A stretch of DNA of 64,000 bases from Rubrobacter tropicus (GTDB lineage: Bacteria > Actinomycetota > Rubrobacteria > Rubrobacterales > Rubrobacteraceae), in assembly GCF_011492945.1 (NCBI RefSeq), contig NZ_CP045119.1, positions 2,852,001 to 2,916,000 on the forward strand, read 5' to 3'. The notes below the pieces were generated by a model that was not told the DNA's origin, ran no database searches, and saw only the letters and a program-made list of their open reading frames with translations. The translations under genes and the position numbers were made by a program. Within the stretch, counting starts at the first letter, position 1. The number at the start of each line of letters is the position of its first letter. Below, piece after piece: positions 39,484-48,288 of the stretch.

Positions 39484-42003
39484 TTACTCGGACTCGACCT
39501 TGACGATCTCCTTGGGCTGGCTGACCTTGATGTCCACTATCGACTCGTCCTCGGAGATGTCGTCTGAAGACTTGTCGTTCGGCTCGATGGTCACCTTGGA
39601 GCCGTTGGGGATCTCGCCCTTGAGGATCATCTCGCTCATGGGGTCTTCGATCATGCGCTGCAGCACGCGGCGCAAAGGCCTCGCCCCGAACGCCGGGTCG
39701 TAGCCCTCCTCGGCGAGCTTGTCCAGGGCCTCGGTCGTGAACTCGACCGTGACCTCGCGCTCGGCGAGCTGCTTGCGGAAGCGCTTGACCTGGACCTCGA
39801 TGATCTCGCGCATCTGCGCCCGCTCCAGCTTGTGGAAGACGATGATCTCGTCGATCCTGTTCAGGAGCTCGGGACGGAAGATCTTGCGCAACTCGCTCGT
39901 TACGCGGCCCTTCATCTCCTTGTAGGAGAGCCCCTCTTCGCCCCCGCCGAAGCCCAGGGACTGAGTCTTGTTGATCGTCTGGGCCCCGACGTTGGAGGTC
40001 ATGATGATCACGACGTTCTTGAAGTCGACGGTGCGCCCTTGGGCGTCGGTGAGCTGCCCGTCCTCGAGGATCTGCAACATGATGTTGAAGACGTCCGGGT
40101 GGGCCTTCTCGATCTCGTCGAAGAGAACGACGCTGTACGGACGGCGCCTGACCTTCTCGGTGAGCTGCCCGCCCTCGTCGTAGCCGACGTATCCGGGCGG
40201 CGAGCCGACCAGACGCGAGACCGTGTGGCGCTCCATGTACTCGGACATGTCGAGCCGGATCATTGACTCCTGGTCGCCGAAGAGGTACTCGGCCAGCGTC
40301 CTCGCGAGCTCCGTCTTACCGACGCCCGTGGGGCCGAGGAAGACGAACGAGCCGGAGGGCCGGTTCGGGTCCTTGATGCCGGCGAAGGTGCGGCGAATAG
40401 AGCGGGAGACGGCCTTGATGGCCTCGTTCTGCCCGACCACGCGGCCGTGCAGCGCATCCTCCATCTGCAAGAGCCTCGCGGACTCCTCCTCGGTCATCTT
40501 CTTGACCGGGATGCCCGTCCACATAGAGACGATCTCCGCGATCTCGTTCTCGCCGATGGAGACCCGCTTCTCCTCGACCTTGCCCTCGCGCCAGGCCTTC
40601 TCGAGCTCTCTACGCTGGGCGACGAGCTTGCGCTCCGAATCGCGGAAGCGGGCGGCCTTCTCGAACTCCTGGCCGTCGATAGCCGCTTCCTTCTCCGTGC
40701 GGACCTGGGTGAGCTCCTCGTCGATCTCGCGGTAGTAAGGCGGCGAAGACATGGTCTTGATCCTCATCTTGGAGGCCGCCTCGTCGACGAGGTCTATTGC
40801 CTTGTCGGGCAGGAACCTGTCGGCGATGTACCGGTCACCGAGCTGCGAGGCGGCCTTCAAGGCCTCGTCTGTGATGTCGATGTTGTGGTGGTCCTCGTAC
40901 TTCTCGCGCAGGCCCTTGAGGATGAGCTCCGTCTCCTCGACGGACGGCTCGCCGACCTGGATGGTCTGGAAGCGACGCTCCAGCGCCTTGTCCTTCTCGA
41001 CGTACTTGCGGTACTCGTCGATGGTCGTGGCACCTATAACCTGGATCTCACCCCGGGCGAGAGCCGGCTTCAGGATGGAAGCGGCGTCGATCGCGCCCTC
41101 GGCCGCACCCGCCCCGACGAGGTTATGGATCTCGTCGATGAACAGGATGATGTCGCCGTGGTCGGTGATCTCCTTCATTATCTTCTTGAGCCGCTCCTCG
41201 AACTCACCCCTGTACTTGGAGCCCGCGACCAGCGCCCCGAGGTCGAGCGTGTAGACCTCTTTGTTGGCGAGGATGTCCGGGACCCTATCCTCGGCTATCT
41301 CCTCGGCAAGCCCCTCGACGATGGCGGTCTTGCCGACGCCGGGCTCGCCGATGATGACGGGGTTGTTCTTGGTGCGGCGGACGAGGATCTGCATGATGCG
41401 CGCGATCTCGTCGTTCCGCCCGATTACCGGGTCGAGCTTCTCCTCCTCGGCGTAGGCCGTGAGGTTCCGCCCGTACTGGTCGAGCTGGCGGGTCTTGGGC
41501 CGCTTGGCCTCCACCCCGCCGCGGCCACCGGCCGCCTCGCCAGCGCCGCCGCCCCGGCTCCTGCCGCGACCACCGCCGAGACGCCGGACGACCTCGCGCC
41601 TGACCTTGTCCGGGTCGACGTCGAGGTTCGAGAGCACGCGCGCCGCCACACCCTCGGACTCGCGCACCAGGCCAAGCAGGATGTGCTCGGTGCCTATGTA
41701 GTTGTGGCCGAGCTGCAGCGCCTCGCGCAAAGCCAGCTCGAGCACCTTTTTGGAGCGCGGGGTGAAGGGCGCCTGGGCCCCTGTCCCCTCTTCACCGTAG
41801 CCGACTATGCTCTCGACCTGCTCGCGCACCTCGTCGAGGGTGACGTTCAGAGAGGAGAGCGCCTGGGCGGCCACGCCCTCGTCCTCGCGAAGGAGGCCGA
41901 GGAGCAGGTGCTCGGTGCCTATGTAGTTGTGGTTGAAATGACGGGCCTCGTCCTGCGCGAGCACCACGACCTTGCGGGCCCGCTCCGTGAATCGTTCGAA
42001 CAT
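39484..42003 (-). CDS. clpC: ATP-dependent Clp protease ATP-binding subunit ClpC
   Basis: Hsp100 unfoldase that feeds ClpP. The 839 residues have a double Clp_N domain (1-143), a Gly/Arg-rich linker ([21 protein letters not shown]), D1 with Walker [14 protein letters not shown] and a UVR-type coiled middle domain ([39 protein letters not shown]). D2 carries [20 protein letters not shown], and the C terminus is acidic. The ribosome site GGAGGAGG precedes the ATG. No ctsR or mcsAB lies beside it, unlike Firmicutes. Confidence 0.96.
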
Positions 42004-42381: not shown

Positions 42382-43848
42382 CTAAGAACCTAAGAACCTC
42401 CGATGCACCTCCTCGGGCGGCAAGCCCGCTATAAACGGCCCGGCCTTCGGCCCGCTGGTCTTGCCGAGCAGCGTCTTGTAGACGGCGGCGAAGGCCCGCT
42501 TGGGCTTCAGGCCGCGTCCGACGGCGGTTGAGTAGAGAAGGTCCTGCACCTCGTCCCCGCCCATCTCCGGCCCGAGGCTCGCGGCGACGGCGCCGAGGTA
42601 CTCGCGCTGCTCCGCGTCGAGCCCGGCCGCGAACTCGCGCGACTCCTCCGGCTCTAAAAGCCCGATCCTCATGGATTCGGGCGCCCAGTCGCGCGCCCAG
42701 TTGCGGGCGTAGTAGAGGTCCTGCGCGAGCTGCTCGGGGTCCCCGGCCGCCCCTTCGTAGCCCCCGCGCCGGAGCATCGTGGCCGCCGCTTCGACGTCCT
42801 CTCCTACCGTCTGGGCGACGAGCGCGAGGTGGTTGAAAGGGACCTCGCTCCCCCCCGTCTCCTCGTTGAACTCGTCCATGAAGCGGGGAAAGCCTTCCCA
42901 GAGGTCCAGCTCGATGGCGCGGGCCGGGTCGCGGCCCAGGAAGAGGCGCCGCAGAGCGTCGGGCGGCATGATCTTCAGCAGGTCCTTCGGCAGGAGCACT
43001 ATGCCCTTGGAGCTGCTCATCGCGCCCTGGCCCTTTATGTAGTTCCACTCGTACTCGAAGCGGCCGGGGATCGGGTAATGGAAGACCTCGCGGCTCATCC
43101 TGTCCGCCGTGTCGGTCGAGCCCCCGCGGCTGGTGTGGTCCTTGCCGAAAGGCTCGAACGTGACGCCGAGCGCCTTCCACCGCGCCGCGAGCTCGACCCG
43201 CCAGCCGAGCTTGCCCTCCCCTTTCGAGTAGTCGGCGGTCTCCTCGAAACCGTCCTCGTCAACGAAGACGACGCAGTGCTCCTCGGGCAGGTGCTCCAGA
43301 ACGCGGGCGCCGGTCAACTTTCCGGAGGTCCTGCGCGGCAGGTACGGTGACCAGTGTCCGGGCATCTCGCGCCCGCTTGCCTCCTGAAGGATGCCGCGCA
43401 ACCGCTCCGTGTGCTCGATCGCCTCGCGCGTGACGTCCGTGTAGACGCCGTCCTCGTACAGCTCGTGCGAGCGGAGGACCTCTATGTCCATGCCCATCTC
43501 GTGAAGCGCCTCCTCGAACGGGACGAGGAAGTGGTCGGAGTAGGACGCGTGGCAGCCCTCCGGGTCCGGGACGCGCGAGAGGCTGTGGCCGAAATACTCC
43601 TCGTAGCTCTCCGGAACCCCGGGGGCCACCTTGCGCAAGGGGTCTATGGTGTCCGCGTGGAAGACGAAGCGGACCTCTTCGCCCCTGTTCCTGAGGGCGT
43701 TCGCCACGGCTTCGGCGACCAGGACCTCGCGCAGGTTGTGGATGTGGCCGGAGGGGCTTATGCCGGTGACGACCACGTGAGGGCCGCCGCCCAGCCTGTC
43801 GGCCACCCTCTCGGCCCATGAGGGTACGGGGATGCCGGTGTCGCCCAT
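42382..43848 (-). CDS. lysS: lysyl-tRNA synthetase, class I
   Basis: Charges tRNA-Lys by the class I (archaeal-type) enzyme, not the class II LysRS usual in bacteria. The 488 residues show the HIGH-like VTGISPSGHIHNLREVLVAEAVANAL, the GKDHTSRGGSTDTADRM block and the KMSKS-like YIKGQGAMSSSKGIVLLPKDLL, diagnostic of LysRS-I. The start is set at ATG 43848, with GGAG 6 bases upstream; a GTG at 43860 would add four residues. It sits in the position where Bacillus carries the unrelated class II lysS. Confidence 0.92.
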   Translation of the reverse strand: MGDTGIPVPSWAERVADRLGGGPHVVVTGISPSGHIHNLREVLVAEAVANALRNRGEEVRFVFHADTIDPLRKVAPGVPESYEEYFGHSLSRVPDPEGCHASYSDHFLVPFEEALHEMGMDIEVLRSHELYEDGVYTDVTREAIEHTERLRGILQEASGREMPGHWSPYLPRRTSGKLTGARVLEHLPEEHCVVFVDEDGFEETADYSKGEGKLGWRVELAARWKALGVTFEPFGKDHTSRGGSTDTADRMSREVFHYPIPGRFEYEWNYIKGQGAMSSSKGIVLLPKDLLKIMPPDALRRLFLGRDPARAIELDLWEGFPRFMDEFNEETGGSEVPFNHLALVAQTVGEDVEAAATMLRRGGYEGAAGDPEQLAQDLYYARNWARDWAPESMRIGLLEPEESREFAAGLDAEQREYLGAVAASLGPEMGGDEVQDLLYSTAVGRGLKPKRAFAAVYKTLLGKTSGPKAGPFIAGLPPEEVHRRFLGS

Positions 43849-43906
43849 ACGTCGCTCCACTAGGGGTAGTTTACGGAAAACTCGGGGAACTTCGAGGCCG
43901 GAGGTG

Positions 43907-44392
43907 TTAGCTCGCCGCCTCGACGTTGACGATCTCGTACTCCGTCGCGCCGCGCGGGGTCGAGACCGTTACCTTCTCGCCCACCTTGCGCTTGAGCACC
44001 GCGCGGCCGACGGGCGAGGCGTGGGAGAGCTTGCCGCTCCCCGGATCGGACTCGTTCGCGCCCACGATCTGGAAGGTCCGCTCCTGACCGCCGTCGACGC
44101 CCCGCAACGTGACCCGCGTCCCGAGGTCGACCGAGCTGGCGTCGGCCTGGGAAGGGTCCACGACCTTCGCGTTTCGGACGCGGCGTTGGATCTCGCTGAT
44201 CCTACGCTCCAGAAGCCCCTGCTCGGCCTTCGCATCGTCGTACTCGGAGTTCTCCGAGATGTCCCCAAACTCCCGCGCCTGCCGGATGCGGTCGGCAACC
44301 TCCTTGCGACGGACGTCCATGAGGTAAGAGAGCTCCTTCTGAAGCTTCTCCAGCCCCTCGGGGGTAACGAGTTCTTGGTTTCTGTCGGTCAT
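43907..44392 (-). CDS. greA: transcription elongation factor GreA
   Basis: Rescues backtracked RNA polymerase. The 161 residues have an N-terminal coiled coil with the tip acidic residues (EFGDISENSEYDDAKAEQGLLERRI) and the FKBP-like C-terminal domain (VGANESDPGSGKLSHASPVGRAVLKRKVGEKVTVSTPRGATEYEIV). Length is normal. Confidence 0.94.
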   Translation of the reverse strand: MTDRNQELVTPEGLEKLQKELSYLMDVRRKEVADRIRQAREFGDISENSEYDDAKAEQGLLERRISEIQRRVRNAKVVDPSQADASSVDLGTRVTLRGVDGGQERTFQIVGANESDPGSGKLSHASPVGRAVLKRKVGEKVTVSTPRGATEYEIVNVEAAS

Positions 44393-44740
44393 GAGCCGCG
44401 AGATTATACGGGCGGGTCAGAAAGCTGTCAATGCGAAACGCTGCGCGTTTCGGCACGCTGCCTTTGGCAGCTTTCAGCACGCTACGCCCTATGGGCTCCG
44501 CTTTCGGCACGCGTCGGCCTGCTCCGCAGTCCTCGCTCTCAGCCCGTCAGCTTCTTGCTGCGTAAGGCCAGACCGGGCCGCGCATGACGAAGCGGTTCGG
44601 GTGTCGGGAGGCGTAACGTGTACAGACGACTCGCTGAAAGTCCCCGAAGGGGACGTGCTGAAAGCGAAAGCCGAAGGCTGGAGCGGGCTGACAAGGCGCG
44701 ACAGCGCCGGGCTGATAAGCCGCCGTAGGCGACGTGCTCT
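44393..44740. repeat. intergenic mosaic repeat block between greA and coaX
   Basis: About 350 bases without a gene. It is filled with GCTTTCAGC/AGCACGCT and GCTGAAAGC/GGCTGACAAG elements separated by short palindromes such as GCTGCC-TTT-GGCAGC and TCCCCGAAGGGGA. The left and right halves are in opposite orientation. The composition matches the inverted pair at 29.2-29.4 kb, so this is the same dispersed family. Confidence 0.7.
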
Positions 44741-45512: not shown

Positions 45513-46001
45513 CTACACGCCCTTCCCGAACTCCCGTATGCCCGTCAAATCAGCGGAGGCCAGCAAGTCTCCGACCGCGCCACGGCCAGGAATATACAGA
45601 TCCGGGTCGAGGTCCGCGAGGCCAACGAGGTTGAAGGCGCGCGGGATCCCCCGGTGCGGCACCCCGAAATCCGGTTCATCTATTTCCTCATTCCCGAACA
45701 GCAACACGTCTACGTCCACCGTCCGCGGGGCCTTCTCGCCTTTCCGTTCCCGGCCCAGCGCCGCCTCGACGCCCTGGCAGAAGCGCAGGAGCTCGACGGC
45801 AGAAACCCCGCACTCCAGATCGACGACGCGGTTCAGGTAGTCGGGCTGGTCTCCGTCCACCTCGACGGGCGCCGTCTCGTAGACCTTCGACACGCCGCGA
45901 ACCTCCATAGAAGGTCCGCGTCCGAGGGCATCGACGGCCGCCCGCAGGTACGCCATCCTGTCGCCGAGGTTGCTGCCGAGGCTCAGGAAGGCACGGGTCA
46001 C
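45513..46001 (-). CDS. folK: 6-hydroxymethyl-7,8-dihydropterin pyrophosphokinase
   Basis: Folate pathway step before FolP. It has 162 residues: TRAFLSLGSNLGDRMAYLRAAVDALG, YETAPVEVDGDQPDYLNRVVDLE, TVDVDVLLFGNEEIDEPDFGVPHRGIPRAFNL. Pterin and ATP motifs are intact. The GTG start overlaps the upstream fusion gene by 4 bases, the coupling seen for folB-folK elsewhere. Confidence 0.95.
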   Translation of the reverse strand: MTRAFLSLGSNLGDRMAYLRAAVDALGRGPSMEVRGVSKVYETAPVEVDGDQPDYLNRVVDLECGVSAVELLRFCQGVEAALGRERKGEKAPRTVDVDVLLFGNEEIDEPDFGVPHRGIPRAFNLVGLADLDPDLYIPGRGAVGDLLASADLTGIREFGKGV

Positions 46002-47359
46002 CTGCGGAACGTGGTGGAGACGGAGAAGGTGGAAGCGGGTGGGTTCGCCGGTTCCGGAGCACCGGAGATGGTGACGCCGAGCTCCAGCATCGCGGGGAAC
46101 GATCCCATCAACCGCTCGCCCAGCGCCATTGCCGCGGCCTCCAGGCTTCGGGCTTCGGTCTCGAGGAGTTCGTCCCGGATCATGTCCGCGACGTCCCCCA
46201 ATTCTACGCTGGTCGACCCGACCGCGAACTCCGGTGAGACCCGGTAAGAGTAGTCTGCATCGGCGCTTACGGTCAGCGGGCGCGGGAGGTTCAACTCCGC
46301 CCTGATCCCCTCCACCTTCCCCCGGAACAGCTTCCAGCCTGCTTCCTCCGTGCTCCGCCCGACTTGGTCTAGCGAATCGTACTCGACTCCGCTGCCAGCA
46401 AGCCTGCGCATGACCTCGCGGCGAACGACATCGGGGTCCACGTCCAGGTTCAGGAGCACGCGGGCGGCGACACCCTCGGACTCGCGCACCAACCCGAGCA
46501 GGACGTGCTCGGTGCTGACGTAGTCGTGGCCGAGCTGCGCGGCCTCCCTGAGCGCGATCCGCAAGACCTTGTTGACGCGGGGCGTGAAGGGCGCCTGGGC
46601 GCCTGTCATCTCTTCGCCGTAGCCGACGATGCTCTCGACCTGCTCGCGCGCCTCGTCCAGGTGTACCCCGAGCGCCTCCAGAACCTCGGCGGCTATGCCG
46701 TCTTCTTCGCGGATCAGGCCCAGCAGGATATGTTCGGTGCCTATGTAGTTGTGGTTGAAGTGACGGGCCTCGTCCTGCGCGAGCACCACGACCTTGCGGG
46801 CCCGCTCCGTGAACTTTTCGAACGATGCCCGGTCCTCTTCCCGCGGATAGCGGCCGAACGACCTCTGGAGCGCCCCCCGCGCCCAGCCTAGCGGGGATGG
46901 AGTCGCCCGTGACCGAAAGCGGGTCCCTCCGCCCATCCTGCGCAGAGTCTCTCCACGAATCTTTTCCGGCTCGATGCCGAGGTTGGAGAGCGCTGTCGTG
47001 GAGACACCCCCGCCTTCGGCCAGCAACCCGAGCAGGATATGCTCGGTGCCTATGTAGTTGTGCCCGAGACGAAGCGACTCTCCGAGAGAGAGTTCCAGAA
47101 CGTCCTTGGAGCCCTGCGTAAACGGCGCCTGGGAGCCGGTTTCCTCGTCACCGAACCCTACGATGTTCTCTACCTGCTCACGAACTCCATCGAGGGTGGC
47201 GCCACAGGCACGCAGAGCTTGGGCCGCCACGCCTTCCTCCTCGCGGATCAGACCCATCAGCAGATGTTCCGTGCCTATGTAATCGTGCCTGAGACGCGCG
47301 GCCTCGTCCTGGGCAAGCACGACCACCTTCCGGGCCCGTTCGGTGAACCGCTCGAACAT
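45998..47359 (-). CDS. four-repeat Clp_N protein fused to a degenerate FolB-like domain
   Basis: 453 residues. Residues 1-143 and 180-323 are each a double Clp_N domain. The second is close to the ClpC N domain at 39.5-42.0 kb ([28 protein letters not shown] shared). There is no AAA+ module. Residues 344-453 resemble dihydroneopterin aldolase: VEGIRAELN aligns with HGV..EEN, SVELGDVADMI with tVdYgeVa..v, RSLEAAAMALGERLMGSFP with lLE.lAeria..l...fp. The catalytic Tyr becomes Leu387 and the Lys becomes Ser432, while the pterin-anchoring Glu is kept (E407). The gene occupies the folB slot between folP and folK and overlaps folK by 4 bases. FolB activity is doubtful; a pterin-sensing Clp adaptor is a guess. 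Confidence 0.8.
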   Translation of the reverse strand: MFERFTERARKVVVLAQDEAARLRHDYIGTEHLLMGLIREEEGVAAQALRACGATLDGVREQVENIVGFGDEETGSQAPFTQGSKDVLELSLGESLRLGHNYIGTEHILLGLLAEGGGVSTTALSNLGIEPEKIRGETLRRMGGGTRFRSRATPSPLGWARGALQRSFGRYPREEDRASFEKFTERARKVVVLAQDEARHFNHNYIGTEHILLGLIREEDGIAAEVLEALGVHLDEAREQVESIVGYGEEMTGAQAPFTPRVNKVLRIALREAAQLGHDYVSTEHVLLGLVRESEGVAARVLLNLDVDPDVVRREVMRRLAGSGVEYDSLDQVGRSTEEAGWKLFRGKVEGIRAELNLPRPLTVSADADYSYRVSPEFAVGSTSVELGDVADMIRDELLETEARSLEAAAMALGERLMGSFPAMLELGVTISGAPEPANPPASTFSVSTTFRR

Positions 47360-47430
47360 CCTGGCTTATCCTCCTTCTCATCCCCGATGAGCGGGTCCAG
47401 TCTACCCCCTCAAAGGACGCTACGAAGGTT

Positions 47431-48288
47431 TCAAACCCTCCAGACGGCCTCCGCGACGGCGAGCGCCTCCCGGTTTGCCCTGACGTCGTGGACGCGAAAG
47501 AGGGTGGCGCCTCTCTCGTAGCCGAGAACGGTGGTCGCCACCGTGCCGAAGACCCGGTCCTTCGCCTCCTCTGTGCCCGTGATCCTGCCGAGGAACCTCT
47601 TGCGCGAAGCGCCCAAAAGAACGGGGAATCCGAGGCCAACTATGGCTTCGAGGTTACGGAGGAGCGCGAGGTTGTGCTCCAGGGTCTTTCCGAACCCTAT
47701 GCCGGGATCGAGTGCTACGTTCTCGGCGTCCACGCCGGCCGCGATGGCGTGGTCGGCCCGCCGCGCCAGGAAGTCTCGCACCTCGCGCACCACGTCGTCG
47801 TAGCGGGGTTCTTTTTGCATGGTCTTCGGTTCGCCGAGCATGTGCATCAGGATGAGGGGACAACCGGCGTCCGCGACGAGCGCGGCCATGCGCCGATCAC
47901 CCCGCAGCGCGGTCACGTCGTTGACGATTCGCGCCCCCGCTTCGAGGGCGGCTTCGGCGGTGGAAGCGCGGTAGGTGTCCACGGAGACGCCGGCATCGGG
48001 ATGGGCTTGGAGGATCGCCCGGATCACGGGGACTACCCTGCGAAGCTCTTCTTCTTCGGTAACGGGGTCTGAGCCGGGCCTGGTGGATTCGCCGCCGATG
48101 TCTATGGCGTCGGCGCCTTCTTCGAGCATGCCCGCGGCGTGGCGTGCGGCGGCCTCCGGGTCGAGGAAGTCGCCGCCGTCCGAAAAGGAGTCGGGGGTTA
48201 CGTTCAGGATGCCGAAAAGGGCGGGGCCGGGACCCTGCAGCGGGTTCCCGGCCCTCGCCCCTCGGCGCGTCGCCCGTTCGCGGGACAC
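47431..48288 (-). CDS. folP: dihydropteroate synthase
   Basis: Joins p-aminobenzoate to the pterin; target of sulfonamides. The 285 residues have FGILNVTPDSFSDGGDFLDPEAAARHAAGMLEEGADAIDIGGESTRPGSDPV, the VSVDTYRA loop, and LDPGIGFGKTLEHNLALL with GASRKRFLG. The TIM-barrel motifs are complete. The start may be one of several in the basic head (SRERATRRGARAG). It follows ftsH by one base. Confidence 0.95.
   Translation of the reverse strand: MSRERATRRGARAGNPLQGPGPALFGILNVTPDSFSDGGDFLDPEAAARHAAGMLEEGADAIDIGGESTRPGSDPVTEEEELRRVVPVIRAILQAHPDAGVSVDTYRASTAEAALEAGARIVNDVTALRGDRRMAALVADAGCPLILMHMLGEPKTMQKEPRYDDVVREVRDFLARRADHAIAAGVDAENVALDPGIGFGKTLEHNLALLRNLEAIVGLGFPVLLGASRKRFLGRITGTEEAKDRVFGTVATTVLGYERGATLFRVHDVRANREALAVAEAVWRV

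Follow-up and report, generated by a model that had tools for sequence, protein, structure and literature searches.

What is a protein with ClpC-type receptor domains doing in the slot of a folate operon that classically holds folB, the gene for dihydroneopterin aldolase? The window analysed here, a stretch of 64,000 nucleotides from Rubrobacter tropicus, carries such a gene between folP and folK, and we call it gene X (Table 1). The initial annotation had described its product as four Clp_N repeats without an AAA+ module, joined to a degenerate FolB domain, and had inferred either a pterin-responsive adaptor or decoy for ClpC, or a FolB recruited to new chemistry.

Table 1. Gene X, its parts and its neighbours in the window.
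Feature	Position	Strand	Basis
Gene X: four Clp_N repeats and degenerate FolB (T-fold), 453 aa	45998..47359	-	ORF call, Pfam, relative G003:C48:6312-7649
First Clp_N double domain, residues 1-146	46922..47359	-	PF02861; pLDDT about 90; pArg-pocket Glu in both TEH motifs
Low-confidence linker, residues 147-178	46826..46921	-	pLDDT <50 for residues 145-176
Second Clp_N double domain, residues 179-326	46382..46825	-	Pfam; 79% identity to own-genome ClpC N-domain; PDB ClpC1 N-domain 3wdb, E 9.1e-52
Degenerate FolB domain (T-fold), residues 343-453	46001..46333	-	Slot-FolB HMM, E 1.3e-9; DHNA fold match, Z 15.1; tree
Leu387 at the catalytic Tyr54 position (His in the other five degenerate relatives)	46199..46201	-	Alignment
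Glu407, equivalent of the pterin-anchoring Glu74, kept in all slot proteins	46139..46141	-	Alignment
Gly433 at the catalytic Lys100 position (Arg or Asp in relatives)	46061..46063	-	Alignment
Ribosome-binding site AGGAGG, 10 bases ahead of the X start codon (ATG)	47370..47375	-	Sequence
folP (dihydropteroate synthase), upstream of X	47431..48288	-	Pterin_bind, E 5.6e-88
folK, downstream of X, 4-base overlap (GTGA)	45513..46001	-	HPPK, E 2.5e-29
clpC, same gene cluster; likely Clp_N donor family, presumed functional partner	39484..42003	-	Pfam; Clp_N tree

Architecture and position of gene X

The reading frame of X (45998-47359, minus strand) is uninterrupted over its 453 residues. Pfam finds four Clp_N stretches in it (E 3.8e-70) and no AAA+ family, which sets X apart from the ClpC/Hsp100 unfoldases and bears out the motorless four-repeat build proposed earlier; the gene order folP-X-folK and the GTGA overlap with folK had likewise been read correctly. 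On the same strand the genes follow one another as tilS, hpt, ftsH, folP, X, folK, coaX, class I lysS and clpC. The class I lysyl-tRNA synthetase gene (window 42382-43860, minus strand) keeps its position between coaX and clpC across the family, and a 251-residue ORF without Pfam match lies on the opposite strand between lysS and coaX (window 43832-44587, plus strand). Defence-system models gave no match.

The full-length model of X (pLDDT 81) consists of two Clp_N double domains, disordered linkers and a T-fold, with a pTM of 0.42, so that the placement of the domains relative to one another is not fixed by the model. A frameshift or a merger of two genes, which had been named as a finding that would overturn the first description, is ruled out: the protein of a relative (G003:C48:6312-7649) has the same four-repeat build and matches X along its whole length at 56% identity.

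Origin of the C-terminal domain

General family models place the C-terminal domain below their thresholds. Pfam FolB (PF02152) reaches 16.4 bits over residues 355-447 (E 0.013; cut-off 31.8 bits), and TIGR00525 gives 13.7 bits, below its cut-off of 72.15 bits. An HMM built from the seven intact FolBs that occupy the same operon slot in relatives, searched against 2764 sequences, matches the window domain with 35.7 bits (E 1.3e-9) and finds all six degenerate domains, and the first matches of no known kinship appear at E 1.7 or worse. The AlphaFold2 model of the degenerate domain, for which the six degenerate domains were the only input, has a mean pLDDT of 78 and the T-fold order E-E-H-H-E-E. 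Solved DHNAs rank first in the Foldseek search with this model (E 1.8e-6), and a DHNA is also the top match of VIA-align, with Z 15.1 and an rmsd of 2.9 A over 107 residues; the other structures in the fold search are uricase, GTP cyclohydrolase and QueF-like. Additionally, two weak FolB-model matches of about 300 residues (L177:1892-2788 and L179:2009-2902) are uricases (PF01014), a cross-match within the T-fold.

The slot-FolB HMM and the fold searches rule out a chance match to FolB. Residues 343-453 of X have the T-fold and share common descent with FolB, from which they descend. The degenerate C-terminal FolB domain of the initial annotation is thereby established, as is the T-fold that it expected from structure prediction, with DHNAs as the best PDB matches. 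X shares with FolB (PF02152, TIGR00525) the fold and the operon slot, and direct descent is shown by the tree and by intact intermediates; it differs in scoring below the family cut-offs, in having lost the Glu22 loop, Tyr54 and Lys100, and in having acquired Clp_N repeats.

Lost and kept catalytic residues

The catalytic and substrate residues named for the FolBs of S. aureus and M. tuberculosis are Glu22, Tyr54, Glu74 and Lys100 (PMC11328599), and all four are present in the intact slot FolBs. The Glu22 loop (L1) is absent in five of the six readable degenerate domains, G003 retaining an altered part of it; Tyr54 has become His in five of them and Leu in the window protein, and Lys100 is replaced by Arg, Asp or Gly. 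Asp53 is only partly kept in the dead clade, as we call these degenerate FolBs, and Glu74 is kept in all six. X itself therefore retains only Glu74 of the four. The loss of its Glu22 loop is an addition to the initial annotation, which did not mention the loop. The pterin-binding Glu given there is indeed present (Glu407), and so is the Leu in place of the catalytic Tyr; the Ser given in place of Lys has to be corrected, since Lys100 aligns with Gly433 beside a Ser, an assignment made by alignment with relatives in a gapped region. Judged from these residues, aldolase activity of the dead FolBs, X included, is very unlikely.

Among the 43 positions that are invariant in intact slot FolBs, 11 have changed in all six dead FolBs and seven are kept in all six; Glu74 is one of these seven, and the other six, framework positions, are equally retained. 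New residues at four positions (a Gly, His54, Ser72 and Ala75) are common to five of the six dead FolBs, at a mean identity of 33%.

The folate slot across the Rubrobacteraceae

The folP-folK locus was compared in about 30 Rubrobacteraceae genomes (the window genome is G000), and the slot was found in four states. It holds a stand-alone intact FolB in G022 and G046, and one Clp_N pair fused to an intact FolB with all catalytic residues in G010, G018, G049 and G062. A Clp_N pair is joined to a degenerate FolB in G002, G014, G042, G007 and G020 (frame-broken in G020), and two Clp_N pairs in G003 and the window protein; G001 was put into this dead-slot group by its likeness to G003, its truncated contig showing the first Clp_N alone. 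Finally, the slot is empty in 15 genomes, the sister genome G004 included, so that gene X is dispensable. The gap between folP and folK is -4 to 97 bp in the empty slots, which have clean junctions, compared with about 850-900 bp where a fusion is present. G050 and G061 belong with the second of these states, but stops or frame changes interrupt their Clp_N part; in G050 (L168:2721-3600) it contains a stop and continues in another frame, and the FolB ORF is intact with its own ATG, which reflects either real decay or an assembly error. Outside the Rubrobacteraceae, among the matches listed from 396 evenly drawn genomes of the phylum (mostly ClpC), none covers both halves of the fusion. Judged by its relatives, X is thus not a one-off, and stands at one extreme of a family in which some other Clp_N-FolB fusions look active.

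The FolB tree unites all slot proteins, whether intact or dead (100/100), and sets apart from them the second FolBs found elsewhere in these genomes (99/98); the dead FolBs cluster within the slot clade (86/91). In the Clp_N tree the domains of X are nested in the clade of Rubrobacteraceae ClpC N-domains (98/98), with the finer branching unresolved, and the donor was therefore probably the clpC gene of the same cluster. The six-gene species tree places an intact fusion in the deepest lineage of the family (G018), and on it the slot must have become empty six times or more. This is most simply read as a fusion early in the family that was lost repeatedly afterwards; horizontal exchange may also have taken part, because the genus whose slots are intact branches from within the dead-slot lineages. 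A history in which a ClpC N-domain was fused to the N-terminus of FolB and catalysis was lost later is well supported. The FolB domain of the window protein is the most degraded: it has a long branch, position 54 is further changed to Leu, and its divergence from most relatives is nearly equal at the three codon positions.

X is not the sole FolB of its genome. The search for another folB that the initial annotation had suggested finds a canonical one at C1:1159053-1159391 (116.8 bits), with intact motifs and outside any folate cluster. Of the eight dead-slot genomes, seven have such a second canonical FolB, among them that of the window; none was detected in G007, whose assembly is split into 640 contigs and contains a run of N at the slot. 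Nor was a second FolB detected in five genomes whose slot FolB is intact (G010, G022, G046, G049 and G050). A rule that the slot stays intact only where no second FolB exists nevertheless fails in G018 and G062, where both are intact, and also in G061, where a second FolB accompanies a slot FolB carrying a stop.

Selection and the phosphoarginine pocket

Pairwise codon models give an omega of 0.108 for the four-repeat Clp_N part between the window genome and G003 (LRT 152). For the dead FolBs, omega is 0.138 between G002 and G042 (LRT 47.6) and 0.212 between G014 and G042 (LRT 22.4), and omega=1 is rejected in both; the closest testable pairs in the dead clade are under purifying selection. 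For the FolB part of the window protein dS is saturated, and a rough estimate of about 0.24 is obtained with the dS of 2.34 from the Clp_N part and a dN of 0.57; because of this saturation, omega alone is compatible with neutral decay of this domain.

The phosphoarginine (pArg) pockets of ClpC are marked by E32 and E106 in B. subtilis (PMC12583610), and the Clp_N double domains of X carry the corresponding Glu32 and Glu106. Counted over sites 1 and 2, the dead clade has the pocket Glu at all 18 sites seen, and the genus whose slot FolB is live has it at 6 of 10 (Fisher p 0.010, without correction for kinship); the residues at G020 site 1 and in G050 were taken from the sequence by eye. The two halves of the protein have opposite fates: Clp_N tends to erode beside a live enzyme half and is kept beside a dead one.

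Discussion

The reading that we favour, at somewhat less than an even chance and by analogy with ClpC2, is that X is a FolB out of enzymatic service that has become a scaffold carrying ClpC-type receptor domains, and that it acts as a decoy or receptor. In lineages that have another, canonical FolB, catalytic residues of the slot FolB were lost and the protein was retained, under selection as measured on close relatives, for another job, one that its Clp_N domains would perform. Like ClpC, but without a motor, these would bind clients that are unfolded or tagged with phosphoarginine, adaptors, or peptides directed at ClpC, and X would then either compete with ClpC, as a decoy, sponge or holdase, or keep clients ready for it. 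The dead T-fold would most likely be the scaffold of an oligomer. Since FolB enzymes assemble into tetramers or octamers (PMC11328599), a particle of the window protein could display eight or more Clp_N double domains, and the doubling of the Clp_N pair would mean higher valency. The L1 loop, which becomes ordered in MtFolB on octamer formation, is deleted in X, and the oligomer may therefore differ.

The closest analogue that has been tested is ClpC2 of mycobacteria (Rv2667; PDB 8AD9, 8ADA), an orphan Clp_N double domain which also lacks AAA+ and is joined to a domain foreign to ClpC, and which sequesters the ClpC1 ligand cyclomarin A (PMC10030653). As far as can be read from the sequence, both key Phe positions of the cyclomarin A site are kept in both Clp_N pairs of X. 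The extra domain of ClpC2, an N-terminal four-helix bundle, dimerises the protein, and ClpC2 represses its own gene; X, in contrast, begins directly with Clp_N, ends in a FolB-derived T-fold, carries one or two Clp_N pairs across the family and is encoded in a folate operon. The N-terminal domain of ClpC itself (ClpC, ClpC1; PDB 5HBN, 6PBQ) is up to 79% identical to the Clp_N pairs of X when taken from the ClpC of the same genome, and has the same pArg-pocket Glu, but X has no AAA+ rings and hence would not unfold proteins. Actinobacterial ClpC1 binds pArg although mycobacteria have no known McsB homologue (PMC9604228). Two family models for this arginine kinase gave no match here, nor in any control genome, and so carry no weight.

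Other orphan Clp_N proteins occur in the family apart from the slot gene. ClpC2-like proteins with about 60 foreign N-terminal residues before a Clp_N pair are encoded in G008, G048 and G061 (L223:1600-2283, minus strand; L227:520-1236, plus strand; L228:1236-1841, plus strand). Further orphan double-domain proteins of 170-190 residues (L224:1571-2131, L225:1482-2060, L226:1514-2032) are found in G004 (two) and G013 (one), genomes from which the slot gene is gone; one of the G004 copies is without the pArg-pocket Glu, and the neighbours of these genes have no telling Pfam match.

One could argue that X is a mere relic, a fusion left without purpose after the second FolB took over, its gene decaying and being deleted lineage by lineage, with the window copy at a late stage. 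The repeated emptying of the slot (six changes or more), with clean folP-folK junctions, fits such decay, as do the broken Clp_N parts of G050 and G061 and the window FolB domain with its long branch, its Leu at position 54 and its near-equal codon-position divergence. However, the frame of X is open over 1.36 kb behind a strong ribosome-binding site, the omega values are low in the Clp_N part (0.108) and in the dead FolB pairs (0.14-0.21), the dead clade shares new residues, and the Clp_N repeats have expanded from two to four in G000 and G003; we regard decay as unlikely, if still to be reckoned with. A new enzyme, in which a pocket with His54 and Glu74 runs another reaction and Clp_N only regulates enzyme stability via ClpCP, would account for the His54 and the Ala75/Ser72 newly common to five dead FolBs, and T-fold enzymes are chemically diverse, as the uricase, GTP cyclohydrolase and QueF-like matches illustrate. 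Yet the window protein has Leu at position 54, no genomic partner enzyme was seen and Clp_N is the better conserved half, which makes this explanation highly improbable.

It is rather improbable, too, that X is a pterin-responsive ClpC adaptor, whose FolB domain binds a pterin or guanine-like ligand at the subunit interface and so sets the oligomer state and, with it, the display of Clp_N. The folate operon context, the Glu74 equivalent kept in every slot protein and the change of MtFolB from tetramer to octamer upon ligand binding (PMC11328599) agree with this idea; the pterin-contacting L1 with Glu22, Tyr54 and Lys100, however, are lost in the dead clade, Asp53 is kept in part, and Glu74, as one of seven intact-invariant positions retained in all six, may have been kept for structural reasons. 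Pterin sensing by X is thus weakly supported, and of the interpretation in the initial annotation it is the part that finds no support beyond one residue, Glu74. The fusion, the slot and the loss of catalytic residues hold, and its decoy or adaptor idea suits the Clp_N part, which derives from the ClpC N-domain of the family and has the pArg-pocket Glu at every site. A wider version, with the dead FolB as a ligand-gated oligomerisation switch (for a pterin or another small molecule, through Glu74 and mostly also His54) that sets the number of ClpC-type receptor domains displayed and ties folate or purine status to ClpC-dependent proteolysis, seems to us decidedly unlikely. An accessory role like that of ClpT, in which ClpP or ClpC would be bound by the orphan Clp_N pairs as an aid to protease assembly, with the T-fold as a spacer, would be in keeping with clpC lying in the same cluster. 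ClpT1 and ClpT2 of chloroplasts (PDB 4y0b, 4y0c) are orphan double Clp_N proteins without AAA+ as well, described as attaching to the Clp protease (PMC4243950), but these plastid proteins have no T-fold, and X matches ClpC N-domains (E 9e-52) far better than it does ClpT (E 8e-10 and 1e-8) and has pocket residues of the client-binding N-domain type. Such a role is therefore quite unlikely.

The absence of any described protein of this build, as stated by the initial annotation, is borne out in the open-access literature, in which we found no Clp_N-FolB protein. Orphan Clp_N proteins as such are already known (ClpC2, ClpT); what is new is a decoy-type domain on a retired metabolic enzyme, with the intermediates preserved. 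The family thus offers a traceable case of a metabolic enzyme acquiring a protease receptor domain from its own gene cluster, with lineages frozen at successive stages: the enzyme alone, the enzyme with a receptor, the receptor on a dead enzyme, and loss of the gene. Should X be a decoy or sponge, as we favour, Clp-buffering proteins would arise repeatedly in actinobacteria on unrelated scaffolds, which would have a bearing on Clp-directed antibiotics and on engineered degradation.
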